The translations under genes were made by a program, and so were the position numbers. From Bradyrhizobium sp. CB2312 (lineage in GTDB: Bacteria > Pseudomonadota > Alphaproteobacteria > Rhizobiales > Xanthobacteraceae), in assembly GCF_029714425.1 (NCBI RefSeq), contig NZ_CP121668.1:5911501-5975500 (forward strand): DNA of 64,000 nt. Reading direction: 5' to 3'. Shown here piece by piece: positions 2,371 through 9,799 of the stretch (position 1 is the stretch's first letter; the number at the start of each line of letters is the position of its first letter). The notes under the pieces are model-generated. The model was not told the DNA's origin. It did not search any database and was given only the letters and a program-made list of their open reading frames with translations.

Positions 2371-3414
2371 ATGCTCGCGACCCAAAATTCCATTCCAGCC
2401 GCGGAGACGGCGACGGAGCGGCTCGATTTCGAGCGCGCTCGCCAGTCACCCGGCCTGTCGGGGATGCTCGCCGCAAGCGTGGTCGCCGTGATCGCGGCCG
2501 CCTTCGGCGTCATGCTCTGGTATGCCGACAGCTACGAGATCGAGATCGGAACCCGCGTCCGTGGCGACGAGATGCGGCTCGTCAACGGCGAGCTCTCGAC
2601 CGCGTTCGACCGCGATGGCCGCTTCGCATTGGCGCTGGCCGAGGTCACGGCGCGGCGTGCGACGATCCGCCAGGCGCTCGCTGCGCGCGACCGGGCCGAA
2701 TTGATGCGCCAGTCGGAGGAAACCTTTGCCCACCTCCACCAGCAGGCCGGCGTGCAGATCTTCGGTTTCCAGGACAAGAACATCCGTTATTTCCTGCGCG
2801 TCCACAAACCCGAGCAATTCGACGACGACATCTCCGGATTTCGCCCGATGATCGTCGCCGCCAATCGCACCACGCGCCCGCAGGTCGGACTCGAGATCGG
2901 CGTTGCCGGGATCGGCCTGCGCGGGGCGACCATCGTCGAGCAGCAGGGCGTCATGGTCGGCACCGTCGAAGTCGGCCTCGATCTCAAGCCGTTGATCGAG
3001 AGCGTCAAGGCAACGTCCAACGCCGACATTGCGATCGTTATCGTCCCCTCGCTTGCGGGCATCGCACTCGATCCCAAGCTGCCTGCCTTCGGCGATCTCG
3101 TGCTGGCGATGTCGACCGACGACCGGCTCTTCTCTTCGCTGCTGAAGACGATGCCGCTGCGTCCGGCGCATGACAGCGTGGCCGCCGCGCCGACGCTTGA
3201 GGGCCATCGCTATGACCTGATCACGCGGCCGCTCGTCGATTTCAGCGGCCGCATGATCGGCTTCTCCATTGCGCTCAAGGCTGATTACGGCACCGAGCTC
3301 GGACGCTCGCGCACCGAATTGCGTGTCGTTGCGATCTGCGGCGGCATCTGCGCCTTCATGGCATTCGCACTTCTGTTCCGCGCCACGGTCGCTCGCGGCA
3401 GGGCATGGCCATGA
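2371..3414 (+). CDS. Membrane-anchored periplasmic Cache-domain sensor without output domain
   Basis: A 347-residue protein with two membrane spans (about residues 30-50 and 316-336) enclosing roughly 265 periplasmic residues. The segment IRYFLRVHKPEQFDDD (about 138-153) followed by RPMI resembles the double-Cache ectodomains of chemotaxis receptors and histidine kinases. A second ligand-domain half follows (about 170-310). After the second span only about ten residues remain, so there is no HAMP, methyl-accepting, kinase or cyclase module. The stop codon overlaps the start of the ion-channel gene by 10 bases (3405-3414), which suggests coupled translation and a working partnership. ATG 2371 is preferred because codons upstream (to 2266) read as a low-quality leader. 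The family assignment is by pattern, not by search. Confidence 0.72.
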   Translation: MLATQNSIPAAETATERLDFERARQSPGLSGMLAASVVAVIAAAFGVMLWYADSYEIEIGTRVRGDEMRLVNGELSTAFDRDGRFALALAEVTARRATIRQALAARDRAELMRQSEETFAHLHQQAGVQIFGFQDKNIRYFLRVHKPEQFDDDISGFRPMIVAANRTTRPQVGLEIGVAGIGLRGATIVEQQGVMVGTVEVGLDLKPLIESVKATSNADIAIVIVPSLAGIALDPKLPAFGDLVLAMSTDDRLFSSLLKTMPLRPAHDSVAAAPTLEGHRYDLITRPLVDFSGRMIGFSIALKADYGTELGRSRTELRVVAICGGICAFMAFALLFRATVARGRAWP

Positions 3415-4472
3415 GAGCAATCGCCGGCATCCTCGGCCTTTTCCTGACGCTGTTCTGTCTCGTGGCAGCGCCGGCCGAGGCCGCTCCAACCGAGTTGCCC
3501 GCGGGAGCACAGCTACCGGTGCGGGTGCGGGTCGCGGTGCGAATCCTCAAGGTGCTCTCCATCAAGGAGGTCGTTGGAGAGGGACGCCTGTTCGTCGAGG
3601 TCACGCAGCGCTGGACCGATCATCGGCAGGCCTTCGACCCGGTCGCCATAGGCTTCGGACGCCTCGATCGCACGGGTGCGGATGCCGACGCGTATCTGAA
3701 ATCGATCTGGACGCCCGGCCTCGAAATCGAGAATCGCATCGGCGAGCCGGAGGCTCGCACCGTGGCGACGTCGACCTATGCCAACGGCGAAGTGATGCTC
3801 ATCGAGCGCTACGAGGCGCGCTATCGCTTTGGCCTCAACCTCAACGCCTTCCCCTTCGACCGCCAGGATCTCACGCTTTCGTTCTTTCTGCCGCGCCACG
3901 CGGCGCAAGACGCAATCCTGATCTCCACCGAAGCCGATCGGGACATCTCCGGCATCGAGGATACAACCGCGTCGGTCGACTGGCGTGCCGCCGGCCTGCG
4001 CTTCGCCAACCGCGACGCGATGGGCTGGAACGCCCGCAGCTATTCCAAGCTCGACGTGACCATGACGCTGGCGCGGATCTCGACGCACTACCTCCTGCGC
4101 ATCTTTGTGCCAATCATGGCCGTGCTGGCGGTATCGGTTTTCGTGCTGTGGGCGCCGGATCTGATCTCGAAGGACAAGGGCAGCCTGATCTTCTCGTCGC
4201 TGCTCGCGCTCGCAGCCATCAGCTTCACGTTCGAATCGAGTTTTCCGGGCTGCATTTCGCTCAACACCCCGGTCGCCCAGATCATCTCCCTCGGTTACAT
4301 GTACCTGATCGTGGTCCTGATCGTCGACATGTCGCTGGATACAATGTCACGTCGCACGCGGGCGGTGAGTGGCGCCGTGATCGATGAACTGAGGCGGCAG
4401 ATGCGCTGGGCGCTGCCATCCATCATGGCTGCGATCTGCATCGGGGCGGCGGTGCGGGCGATCCCGGTCTGA
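3405..4472 (+). CDS. Prokaryotic pentameric ligand-gated ion channel (Cys-loop family)
   Basis: A 355-residue homologue of GLIC/ELIC-type channels, expected to form an inner-membrane pentamer with a periplasmic ligand domain. A signal peptide (residues 1-26, ending AAPAEA) precedes a beta-rich domain with WTD near the start, IWTPGLEIEN (101-110) and the family hallmark FPFDRQDL (149-156). No cysteine pair flanks the loop, as is usual in bacteria. Four spans follow: M1 (about 228-250), M2 (about 259-280), M3 (about 288-310) and M4 (about 334-352). M2 carries serines at the 2' and 6' positions and leucine at 9' when aligned by eye with GLIC. The residues K-D-K (256-258) sit at its inner mouth, so ion selectivity cannot be predicted. 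It overlaps the Cache-protein gene by 10 bases and is probably co-transcribed with it. Confidence 0.92.
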   Translation: MAMRAIAGILGLFLTLFCLVAAPAEAAPTELPAGAQLPVRVRVAVRILKVLSIKEVVGEGRLFVEVTQRWTDHRQAFDPVAIGFGRLDRTGADADAYLKSIWTPGLEIENRIGEPEARTVATSTYANGEVMLIERYEARYRFGLNLNAFPFDRQDLTLSFFLPRHAAQDAILISTEADRDISGIEDTTASVDWRAAGLRFANRDAMGWNARSYSKLDVTMTLARISTHYLLRIFVPIMAVLAVSVFVLWAPDLISKDKGSLIFSSLLALAAISFTFESSFPGCISLNTPVAQIISLGYMYLIVVLIVDMSLDTMSRRTRAVSGAVIDELRRQMRWALPSIMAAICIGAAVRAIPV

Positions 4473-4499: not shown

Positions 4500-5163
4500 T
4501 CACGCGCGGGCCGGCTGCTGCACCGGCATCAGCGCATAGCCGACGCCGCGCACCGTCGCGATCGGCGCCGCCGTTCCGTCATATTGCATCTTCCGCCGCA
4601 GCCGCACGATCAGATTGTCGACCGTGTGCTCGCTGATCTCGCGGGGATCGCGATTGGAGATGACGTCGAGCAGGAAATCGCGGCTGAGCGGCCGCGTCAT
4701 CTGCGAGGCAAGGGCGGCGAGGATGTTGAATTCGCCCGAGGTCAGCTTGACCATGCTGCCGTCGGGACGAAACAGCTCGCGCCGGACCGGGTCGAGAATC
4801 CAGCCGTCGAAGGTGATCACCGATTCCTTGGTCCGGCGCAGGACGCTGCGGATGCGGGCCAGCAGCGTGCGCAGGTTGATCGGCTTGGAGATATAGTCGT
4901 CGCCTCCCGCCTCCAGCCCCGACAGGACGTCGTCATCGGAATCCCGGCTGGTGACGAAGATCAGCCCGCATTGCTCGCCGAGCCGCAATTCGCGCGCGAG
5001 CGCAATGCCGTCGGCGTCGGGCAGGTTGATGTCGAGCAGGACGATGTCGGGCCTGAGCGCAGCGAGCCCCGCGCGCAGCTCGCCGCCGGTCGCCATGCCA
5101 TGCGCGACCATGCCTTCCTCCCGAAGGAACGAGGTCAGCATCAGCCGGATCTCCGGTGCGTCT

Positions 5164-5189
<26 letters not shown>
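4500..5189 (-). CDS. OmpR-family response regulator
   Basis: A 229-residue two-component regulator. The receiver domain starts VLVVEDAPEIRLML, has the phosphorylation site Asp53 in LLDINLP, and the conserved Lys in YISKPINLRTLL. A winged-helix DNA-binding domain follows (from about residue 125, with EHTVDNLIVRLRRKM and the final TVRGVGYAL). It therefore binds DNA when phosphorylated. The gene starts inside the 3' end of the hybrid kinase gene (26-base overlap), so the two form one operon and the kinase is the likely phosphodonor. I prefer ATG 5189, which has AAGGGG just upstream, over a TTG four codons earlier. Domain order is like TorR/ArcA, but the target genes are unknown. Confidence 0.92.
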
Positions 5190-7722
<2,533 letters not shown>

Positions 7723-7875: not shown

Positions 7876-7972
7876 CCTTTAGTTCGATCCCAGACAGGTC
7901 CGACGTCGCCTCACACGCGGGTCCACGTCGCAGCCAACTGCGGCTGGGATCTTGACGAGTGGGAATTGGGGT

Positions 7973-9799
7973 ATGGCTTTCCTTTGTCTCGACAGGTGCG
8001 CACGTCTCGCCGGCTTCAGGCAGGCGACCTCGGCGGCACCCTTGGCTCTGCTCCGCACGCTCGCGTTGCTCATTCTGCTTCAGGCAACCGGCATAGGCTC
8101 AGCGCTCGCGGCGACCACCTGCGCCGGCATCAATGCCGGCGCCTTCAACGTGAGCGGGGCCGACTCTCAGCCGAACACGCCGGTGACTCTGACTGCCGGC
8201 GACGTCATCAAGCTGAACTACACGTTCGTCGTCGACACGACCCTCGTCTACGGCATCCAGATGGGCGTCGGCGGCCACAACACCGACAACTCCGGCGTCG
8301 TGTCGGGCACGCTGCAGATCACCGTGGCGACGTCGGGCACGCAGAATTTCGGCTGGAACGCCCTCAGCGAAGGCCTGCCGTCGCAGATCGACGTCACGGT
8401 CACCTGCACGGCCGCCCCCAGCCCCGGCCCGGTGGTGACCAGCGCCAATCCGGCATCAGGCCCGATCGCCGGACAGCAAACCACCATCGTCATCGGCCAG
8501 AACCTCACTGGCGCGACCTCGGTCAAATTCGGCGGCGTCAACGTGCTCGGCTTCACGGTGCTGAGCGCAACGCAGATTTCGGTGGTGACGCCGCCGCATG
8601 CGGCGGGTGCGGTCGATGTCACCGTCACCACGCCGCTCGGCTCGGCCACGGGGACGGCCATCTATCGCTACGCCGCGATGCCGGATCCGACCGCGGATCC
8701 GACCGTGAAGGCCATGGTCGACTTCCAGGTTTACACCGTGCAGGTGATGGGACAGCAACAGATCGACAATGTGCAGGATCGGCTGATCGAGCTGCACAAT
8801 GACGACGTTCCCCTGGTCAGCAACAGGGCCTCCTTCGCGCAGATGCCCGCGCAGCAGAAGCAGTATGGCCTGCCGGTTGATGCCGGGGACAAGTCGGCCT
8901 CCGCGTCTGGCATGGCGCAGGCCCGGTCTAAGTCGAAGGATGGACAGGCTGTGCCGGTACCGATGGAATCCGATTCATCGCTGCGCTACTGGACCGCAGG
9001 TGCGCTGCTGTTCGGCCGCGACACCACCTATGCCGATGCCAAATACAACGTGTCCTCGACCGGACTGACCGCCGGCGTCGATTCGCGCCTGACCCGAAAC
9101 CTGAAGGCCGGCGTCGCCGTCGGCTTCGGCATCGATCATGCCACGATCGGCAGCGACGGCTCGCACATCAACGCCAATGTCTGGTCGACGCAGGCCTATG
9201 CCAGCTACCGCGTCGCCCCGCAGTGGTTCATCGATGGCGTCCTCGGCTATGCCGTGGGCCGGCTCGGCAACTCTCGCTACGACAGCTCGGCGCAGGCCTT
9301 CGGCGCCGGACATCGCGGCGCCAATGATCTATTCGGCTCGCTGTCGTTGAACCATGAGATCAAGGTCGAGCGCTGGAAGGTCGCGCCCTATGCGCGGCTC
9401 GACCTGCAATGGATCCGGCTCGACGGCTATGTCGAGACCGGCGCCGGCATCTACAACCTCGCCTTCAACCAGACCTCGGCCGTCGATCTCGCCGGCGTGC
9501 TCGGGACCAGGTTCAGCCATGTGACGGACACGTCTGCCGGCACGCTCAAATCCAGCTTCGAGCTCGCCTATCGCCGCAGCTTCAGCGGCGCCTATACGCA
9601 AGCGATCGCCTACAGCTTCGATCCGACGACCATCTACAGCCTGTTCGGCTCGGCGGAGAAGCGCGACCAGGCCCTGATCGGCCTTGGCTTCGAGCTGCAG
9701 GTGAACCGGTCCGTCAGCCTTGGCCTTCAGCTCGACGAACTGATCGCCAGCAACGCACGGAGCGAGCGCGGGCGTGCGCACGTGAAGATCGGATTCTGA
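7973..9799 (+). CDS. Autotransporter-barrel outer membrane protein with IPT/TIG domain
   Basis: A secreted surface protein of 608 residues. After an N-terminal signal peptide ending near GSALA, a small beta domain (about 45-145) precedes an IPT/TIG immunoglobulin-like fold (about 146-225, with NPASGPIAGQQTTIVIGQNL). A linker with QQQIDNVQDRLIELHND follows. The last 270 or so residues form an autotransporter-type beta barrel ending in the outer-membrane signature VKIGF. The short passenger has no protease motif, so adhesion or surface display is more likely than enzyme activity. I chose ATG 7973 over an upstream TTG at 7952. It is followed by a 63-aa single-span protein gene, and a paralogous pair comes next at 10253-14966. 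Confidence 0.82.
   Translation: MAFLCLDRCARLAGFRQATSAAPLALLRTLALLILLQATGIGSALAATTCAGINAGAFNVSGADSQPNTPVTLTAGDVIKLNYTFVVDTTLVYGIQMGVGGHNTDNSGVVSGTLQITVATSGTQNFGWNALSEGLPSQIDVTVTCTAAPSPGPVVTSANPASGPIAGQQTTIVIGQNLTGATSVKFGGVNVLGFTVLSATQISVVTPPHAAGAVDVTVTTPLGSATGTAIYRYAAMPDPTADPTVKAMVDFQVYTVQVMGQQQIDNVQDRLIELHNDDVPLVSNRASFAQMPAQQKQYGLPVDAGDKSASASGMAQARSKSKDGQAVPVPMESDSSLRYWTAGALLFGRDTTYADAKYNVSSTGLTAGVDSRLTRNLKAGVAVGFGIDHATIGSDGSHINANVWSTQAYASYRVAPQWFIDGVLGYAVGRLGNSRYDSSAQAFGAGHRGANDLFGSLSLNHEIKVERWKVAPYARLDLQWIRLDGYVETGAGIYNLAFNQTSAVDLAGVLGTRFSHVTDTSAGTLKSSFELAYRRSFSGAYTQAIAYSFDPTTIYSLFGSAEKRDQALIGLGFELQVNRSVSLGLQLDELIASNARSERGRAHVKIGF

Follow-up and report, generated by a model that had tools for sequence, protein, structure and literature searches.

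Bacterial pentameric ligand-gated ion channels (pLGICs) are structural models for nerve receptors, and their natural signals and roles are largely obscure. An additional domain can be present in the same chain as the channel, as is the case for the extra N-terminal domain of DeCLIC. Outside this channel class, the alpha2-delta subunit, of which Cachd1 is a relative, is a Cache-containing accessory protein of an ion channel. Regarding stand-alone Cache proteins, a predicted operon of Rhodopseudomonas encoding one such protein together with a pLGIC was reported by Tasneem, Iyer, Jakobsson and Aravind, who proposed that the two cooperate (2004; PMC549065). The article further describes fusions of PBP-I modules to pLGICs and, in other prokaryotes, Cache/MCP-N fusions, raises the possibility that such modules, whether Cache or binding protein, sense or concentrate the channel ligands, perhaps for chemotaxis, and draws a parallel to the Cache-containing alpha2-delta subunit of the voltage-gated calcium channel (PMC549065). 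In a census of Cache domains published in 2016, 811 of 883 dCache_3 proteins possess kinase, chemoreceptor or c-di-GMP outputs and alpha2-delta is assigned to the dCache_1/VWA kind; ion channels do not figure among the outputs listed for dCache_3, nor is a dCache_3 protein listed as structurally solved (PMC4822843).

The pair described here is of the same kind as the Rhodopseudomonas operon, namely a stand-alone Cache beside a pLGIC without fused sensor, and comes from a related genus. Both the pairing and the idea of cooperation have been known since 2004, which answers the question, left undecided in a preliminary description of the locus, of whether the pairing had been described. In the searched literature, outside which most subscription papers lie, neither another description of a Cache-pLGIC operon nor a count of, or an experiment on, such pairs was found. 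While the 2004 report concerned one bacterium, the present analysis covers 60 loci out of 60, a second channel type, HAMP-like tails, spacing statistics and structural models, and what is new relative to it is that the pair is kept together across many species. The locus likewise resembles the fused-sensor pLGICs (PBP-I, MCP-N/Cache, DeCLIC) in that a pLGIC is joined to an extra periplasmic module, possibly modulatory, but here the Cache is a separate two-span membrane protein whereas the sensor of fused pLGICs lies within the same chain. With alpha2-delta it would share the condition of Cache-containing accessory protein of an ion channel, but alpha2-delta serves an unrelated channel class.

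The window, i.e. the whole stretch of 64,000 nucleotides of Bradyrhizobium sp. CB2312 that was analysed, contains the following features, the two open reading frames of the preliminary description being both found where it had placed them.

2371..3414, forward strand: dCache_3 sensor gene, 347 aa (open reading frame, Pfam, AlphaFold2 model, PDB fold matches)
3400..3403, forward strand: AGGG, possible ribosome-binding site, by eye, 7 bases before ATG 3411
3405..4472, forward strand (likelier start 3411): pentameric ligand-gated ion channel gene, 355 aa from ATG 3405, 353 aa from ATG 3411
3411..3414, forward strand: ATGA overlap of the likely channel start with the Cache stop TGA at 3412-3414 (sequence)
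3849..3875, forward strand: Pro-loop motif FPFDRQDLT of the channel (sequence)
4167..4247, forward strand: M2 pore segment SKDKGSLIFSSLLALAAISFTFESSFP, with Asp -1', Ser 6', Leu 9' and Phe 16' (by alignment)

The first gene encodes a protein matching Pfam dCache_3 (PF14827; E 3.6e-22, 79.5 bits for a cut-off of 25.7). Because this match, which spans residues 76-224 and profile positions 16-163 of 239, mainly covers the first module, the second Cache module is predicted from the AlphaFold2 model (mean pLDDT 89), which shows two PAS-like sheets flanked by a long helix at the N-terminus and another helix at the C-terminus and whose top PDB fold matches are double-Cache sensors, namely DctB, McpH, PctA and Tlp3. 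The membrane spans, located with the help of this model and of hydropathy in relatives, are placed at about residues 30-52 (TM1) and 318-338 (TM2), with the periplasmic Cache modules between them; since about 10 residues of cytoplasmic tail follow TM2, the protein is without an output domain. A kinase, chemoreceptor or cyclase is what usually follows a dCache_3 domain, although the definition of the domain does not include it. The initial reading as a double-Cache-like, two-span sensor lacking an output is thus borne out by the family match, the model, its structural neighbours and the short tail, and the first protein is indeed modelled as a double Cache domain.

Among relatives, conservation was measured on alignments of Cache and channel (A6, A7) of 56 rows each, comprising the window and 55 of the 60 loci presented below, the effective number of sequences in the paired alignments being about 34-39. 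All 56 paired Caches match the dCache_3 family at E <=0.1. Both membrane spans are visible in the rows read, with G324 near-invariant in TM2; as to TM1, which one start-codon rule trimmed from many Rhizobium rows, it was judged on rows read directly. Conservation of the Cache peaks in the membrane-distal module, with 0.70 vs. 0.51-0.55 in the other Cache regions measured. The residues R143, R158 and R184 are kept in 56/56 paired rows, as well as in at least 90% of another Cache alignment (A4), which includes five unpaired relatives.

The second gene encodes a protein matching Pfam Neur_chan_LBD (PF02931; E 1e-12, 48.4 bits for a cut-off of 26). Its nearest solved relative is GLIC (E 4.9e-16), the proton-gated channel of Gloeobacter, from which the channel of the window differs by its constant Cache partner and by an acidic -1' residue adjoining Lys 0'; superposed on GLIC, the model gives TM scores of 0.74 (target length) and 0.66 (query length). 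With a mean pLDDT of 83, this model comprises an N-terminal signal-like helix, a beta ectodomain and four helices M1-M4, at residues 224-247, 253-277, 287-315 and 321-350. Numbering from ATG 3411, F147, P148, F149, D150 and Q152 of the Pro-loop, as well as the pre-M1 Arg R222, are invariant in 56/56 channels. Regarding the assignment as a Cys-loop-type channel, the WTP and FPFDRQDL motifs, the signal-like helix and the four helices stand, but the Pro-loop is without a Cys pair, like that of other bacterial members. M1 and M2 are the best-conserved channel regions measured (0.79). In M2, for which the prime numbers were set by alignment to GLIC and to the nicotinic receptor M2, 51 of the 56 channels have Asp -1', 54 have Ser 6', 54 have Leu 9' and all have Phe 16'; among the five without Asp at -1', one has Glu and four have neither Asp nor Glu. 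The acidic -1' next to Lys 0' in the channel of the window is as in nicotinic receptors, and from the acidic -1' ring the pore is predicted to be cation-selective. In the genome of the window, a search with the Pfam ligand-binding model retrieved one gene, the channel at 3405-4472, and a later profile search retrieved a second pLGIC relative, with a binding-protein domain fused in front (L126).

The two genes overlap by 10 bases from the first ATG (3405), as first described, and by 4 bases (ATGA) from the second ATG (3411), which is the better start because AGGG sits seven bases 5' of it; the 10-base figure consequently holds for the first start codon and gives way to 4 bases for the likelier one. 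In the 60 relatives, from which the window itself is left out, script-picked starts gave 29 overlaps of 4 bases, 11 overlaps of 1 base and 20 gaps of 1-89 bases. These counts vary with the choice of start, an alternative rule applied to the same 60 loci giving 33 overlaps of 4 bases and 12 of 1 base. Overlaps of 4 or 1 bases thus occur at 40/60 loci (45/60 under the alternative rule), and the 4-base overlap is the commonest spacing under both rules. Tight overlaps of this sort are consistent with coupled translation.

The association of the two genes was examined in a GTDB species set (84,980 species, each represented by a single genome), scanned with two channel peptide patterns, i.e. with channel sequence alone; channel relatives devoid of the two query peptides would escape such a scan. 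This yielded 60 loci, and at 60/60 of them a Cache gene, recognized with a profile of paired Caches, immediately precedes the channel gene, in the same orientation and in a frame of its own. The 60 loci are not independent; some are from metagenome bins, and some contigs are shared with the genus and family searches. The genera include Bradyrhizobium, Rhodopseudomonas, Rhodoplanes, Bosea, Chelatococcus, Pseudolabrys and Phreatobacter, as well as Rhizobium, Ciceribacter, Shinella, Hoeflea and Reyranella, and one betaproteobacterial record, Acidovorax delafieldii (L082), has both genes. At the Rhodopseudomonas loci (L078, L080, L081), identity to the proteins of the window is about 51% for the channels and about 41% for the Caches, and paired channels range down to 37% identity. 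Within the same genus, the channel occurs in 5/146 genomes with the Cache gene adjoining in 5/5; within the family, a channel match occurs in 15/296 genomes with a Cache match directly upstream in 14/15, the fifteenth (G375), counted in the 15 and outside the 14, being partial with one stop codon. With the channel in so few genomes and the Cache beside nearly all of its occurrences, the pair is patchy yet travels together, and the association with channel homologues supposed from one locus is recovered in the species set, the family and the genus alike.

Chance adjacency is negligible, because no other cluster of neighbouring genes exceeds 17/60 loci and the genome of the window contains just three matches to its Cache in 9.8 Mb. 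Besides, the pairwise distances of Caches and channels are correlated (r 0.96 over 56 pairs, for a maximum of 0.18 in 2000 shuffles), as expected for a co-inherited pair; adjacency and correlation alone do not show binding. Cache and channel are thus well supported as a genetic unit, and the two-part device put forward in the preliminary description holds at this level; its further suggestion, namely gating of the channel by the Cache or delivery of ligand from one to the other, keeps the status of a proposal.

As for the origin of the Cache protein, channel-less Cache matches of the family search lie mostly in frames of about 640-1160 residues; short frames of 162, 197 and 225 aa and a weak match of 402 residues are the exceptions. 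At 16/17 unpaired dCache_3 loci, the frame continues, by eye, into HAMP-like and signalling sequence. The paired Caches of Rhizobium and Reyranella retain about 46-67 residues after TM2 (26 in L112), and the pattern of a HAMP start (RP.. L......A.G) is present in many of the tails read; in the branch of Bradyrhizobium, Bosea and Rhodopseudomonas, the tail is reduced to 7-13 residues. After TM2, the Pfam HAMP model scored 27.8 bits in L083, above its cut-off of 25, but 17.2 in L103 and 14.9 in L117, a locus of the second channel type; at E <=0.1 it matched 5/56 paired Caches, which is a weak signal, and it found none in the Cache of the window. A HAMP profile built from 15 of the 17 unpaired relatives scores the paired tails poorly (best E 0.0012), the putative HAMP origin of these tails resting on Pfam and on the sequence pattern. 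In a quick tree, 69 paired and 17 unpaired Caches are separated by one branch, with the reservations that the tree is unrooted, that long-branch warnings apply at this place, that ten duplicate loci were left out and that the unpaired sample comes from one family. The simplest reading of these sequences, a suggestive one, is that loss of the output from a receptor gave the paired Cache, and that one branch later also lost what remained of HAMP.

A divergent second channel type (type II) was found in two genomes of the family (G225 and G199, 28% and 24% identical to the channel of the window, respectively) and in one genome from another family of the phylum (G833), where it is present in 1/18 genomes, i.e. 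G833 itself. At all three loci, a dCache_3 gene recognized by Pfam lies directly upstream of the channel with a 4-base overlap, the starts being ATG, ATG and GTG. At 14 loci of other pLGIC-like matches, originating from the family search (L020), the class search (L051-L054) and the phylum search (L118-L126), the Cache profile found nothing in flanks of at most 1.5 kb, some of which were ended by the contig. As the Cache accompanies type I, that of the window, and type II but none of these 14, having a Cache partner is a property of certain channel types. Elsewhere among bacterial pLGICs, different sensor modules may be in use: L126, in the genome of the window itself, has a periplasmic-binding-protein domain fused ahead of the pLGIC and no Cache, and L123, a weak pLGIC match, adjoins an NMT1-like binding protein.

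Family matches and models, constant adjacency at the loci examined, tight spacing, the absence of an output domain and conservation of the channel core were observed, and on this basis the Cache protein is most likely the membrane-anchored sensory subunit of the channel. Cache and channel would form one signalling unit, in which the Cache would be a membrane-anchored periplasmic sensor whose dCache_3 ancestor, a receptor of the chemoreceptor type or the kinase type, presumably lost its cytoplasmic output, and in which the pLGIC would stand in for that output. The channel is proposed as the output because the output domain is missing, the membrane spans are kept and the partner is constant. Gain or loss of a ligand at the Cache, perhaps in the distal module, would alter its ectodomain or its two membrane helices; the change would reach the channel pentamer by direct contact, and the pentamer would open or close its pore, putatively cation-selective, so that cations flow, with whatever role such a flux may have in the cell. 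Taken as a whole, the explanation that the Cache sensor controls the pLGIC by contact, with ion flux as the output, has in our judgement somewhat better than an even chance of being correct. Several points weigh against it. The dimer of Cache sensors and the pentamer of the channel have no symmetry in common, the HAMP signal in the tails is weak, and the acidic position of the pore lacks its Asp in the few channels mentioned above. A stricter version is put forward tentatively, its chances falling a little short of even: Cache and channel would make up an obligate heteromeric receptor, a chemoreceptor-type sensor stripped of its output would gate a channel of the neurotransmitter-receptor type, and ion flux would replace a methyl-accepting, kinase or cyclase output.

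A further point against control by the Cache is loop C of the channel, where all 56 channels have Gly-Trp and 55 of them have Arg or Lys as the last residue of GWNAR; judged by this conservation, the channel may bind a ligand of its own without input from the Cache, and there is therefore room for a second ligand or for a simple hand-over of ligand. The latter leads to the most serious competing explanation, close to the proposal of 2004 (PMC549065), according to which the Cache does no more than bind a small molecule and raise its concentration close to the membrane, where the ligand then occupies a site on the channel itself. The binding proteins fused to, or encoded beside, the pLGIC-like proteins of L126 and L123 go in the same direction as loop C. 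Such ligand capture would have no need for two membrane spans, both of which are seen in relatives, or for a HAMP-like tail; on this argument from design, it is considered unlikely, though worth keeping in mind.

The Cache could alternatively be an assembly or stability partner, helping the channel to fold or keeping it shut without sensing anything. Its upstream position and the tight spacing of the genes would be in keeping with a chaperone, or with an inhibitor that guards against leakage through the channel; the conservation peak in the distal Cache module and the three arginines kept in every paired row rather suit a putative binding site, these arginines being retained in dCache_3 relatives without a channel as well. 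This explanation is a poor candidate. Less probable still is that the outputs are independent, the Cache acting through mixed dimers on full-length dCache chemoreceptors and being merely co-expressed with the channel. Dimerisation is common among Cache sensors, and the genome of the window has two further dCache_3 matches, in frames of 734 and 676 aa; against it, the paired Caches are set apart from the unpaired ones by the branch described above, long-branch warnings included, and of the 15 family matches to the Cache whose frames measure about 350-520 aa, 14 pair with a channel, the other being a weak match (E 1.4e-4). Lastly, although type I loci probably stem from one ancestral pair and the 60 are accordingly not independent, neighbourhood through shared ancestry alone, without functional link, is highly improbable given that flanking genes differ among loci, that the pair is patchy yet travels together, that it spans such divergent channels and reaches Acidovorax, and that type II repeats the Cache-channel layout.

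If the Cache gates the channel, ion flux joins the outputs of a very common class of bacterial extracellular sensors, and the channel field gains a two-subunit bacterial receptor. If the two do form an obligate heteromeric receptor, the Cache would be, as far as the literature searched shows, the first separate accessory subunit known for bacterial pLGICs. It would also parallel, by convergence, the Cache-containing calcium channel subunits, and the existence of type II would then imply either an old arrangement or one that has arisen twice. Even if the Cache does not gate the channel, the pair still narrows the search for the role of the latter. In practical terms, a channel type not seen without its sensor offers a handle, namely to find the ligand of the Cache and then its effect on the current.

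Regarding the class of that ligand, an anionic molecule is weakly hinted at and was not retained: the citrate sensor CitA is a close one-module fold match to the Cache model (TM 0.83 by target length), and the invariant R184 aligns with the Arg of an SLRG stretch in CitA, in a profile match reaching just E 0.69. A plasmid collection gave no match. Concerning further members of the unit, frames of at least 100 aa flanking the pair at the 60 loci were clustered; with a top cluster of 17/60, a third conserved gene was rejected, and so were the response regulator and the hybrid kinase beside the pair in the window, which are absent from the recurrent neighbour clusters. The clusters found at 5 loci or more all belong to one syntenic upstream region, whose listed members are all Rhizobiaceae and which consists of a 603-aa frame on the opposite strand, by eye an acyl-CoA dehydrogenase, together with overlapping or adjoining frames.

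The gene pair, composed of the dCache_3 sensor gene and the overlapping pLGIC gene, is also carried by a betaproteobacterial record, namely a contig of Acidovorax delafieldii 2AN (L082). The channel encoded at this putative Acidovorax locus is 53% identical to that of the window, which together with the presence of the pair in such a record suggests that both genes were transferred jointly.

Outside the window, the Bradyrhizobium sp. CB2312 genome harbours a further pLGIC-like protein (locus L126), while the phylum search also uncovered a pLGIC-like gene adjoining a gene for a periplasmic binding protein (locus L123):

G000:C1:6792742-6793182, (-) strand, pLGIC-like protein of L126
L123:1105-2217, strand not given, pLGIC-like gene
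L123:2276-3454, strand not given, NMT1-like periplasmic binding protein (Pfam)

The L126 frame spans 766 aa. Pfam assigns its N-terminal part to the periplasmic-binding domain Peripla_BP_6 (E 9.7e-40), and the C-terminal part is a channel region, whose best PDB match has an E value of 1.5e-7; the Pfam scan of the frame gave no channel-domain match. This genome seems to encode two kinds of sensor-channel. The channel profile also matches four further frames from the phylum search (L118, L121, L124 and L125), which are 776-797 aa long and, judged by eye, resemble fusions with binding proteins. Regarding L123, the pLGIC-like gene is a weak match, below the cut-off (Pfam, 22.9 vs. 26 bits), and the layout resembles the PBP-II neighbourhoods of pLGICs reported in 2004 (Tasneem et al., 2004; PMC549065).

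Around the pair, the window contains:

580-2151, (+) strand, DHA2-type MFS efflux transporter, upstream of the pair (TIGR00711)
4500-5201, (-) strand, response regulator with DNA-binding domain (domain scan)
5164-7722, (-) strand, hybrid histidine kinase with receiver and Hpt regions (domain scan)
7952-9799, (+) strand, outer-membrane autotransporter-like protein with IPT/TIG-like stretch (by eye)

The TIGR00711 match barely exceeds its cut-off (231.2 vs. 230.2 bits). The two-component genes, downstream of the pair and convergent to it, are absent from the recurrent neighbour clusters of the 60 species-set loci; by eye, they also adjoin the pair in L003 and L005, two other loci from the searches.
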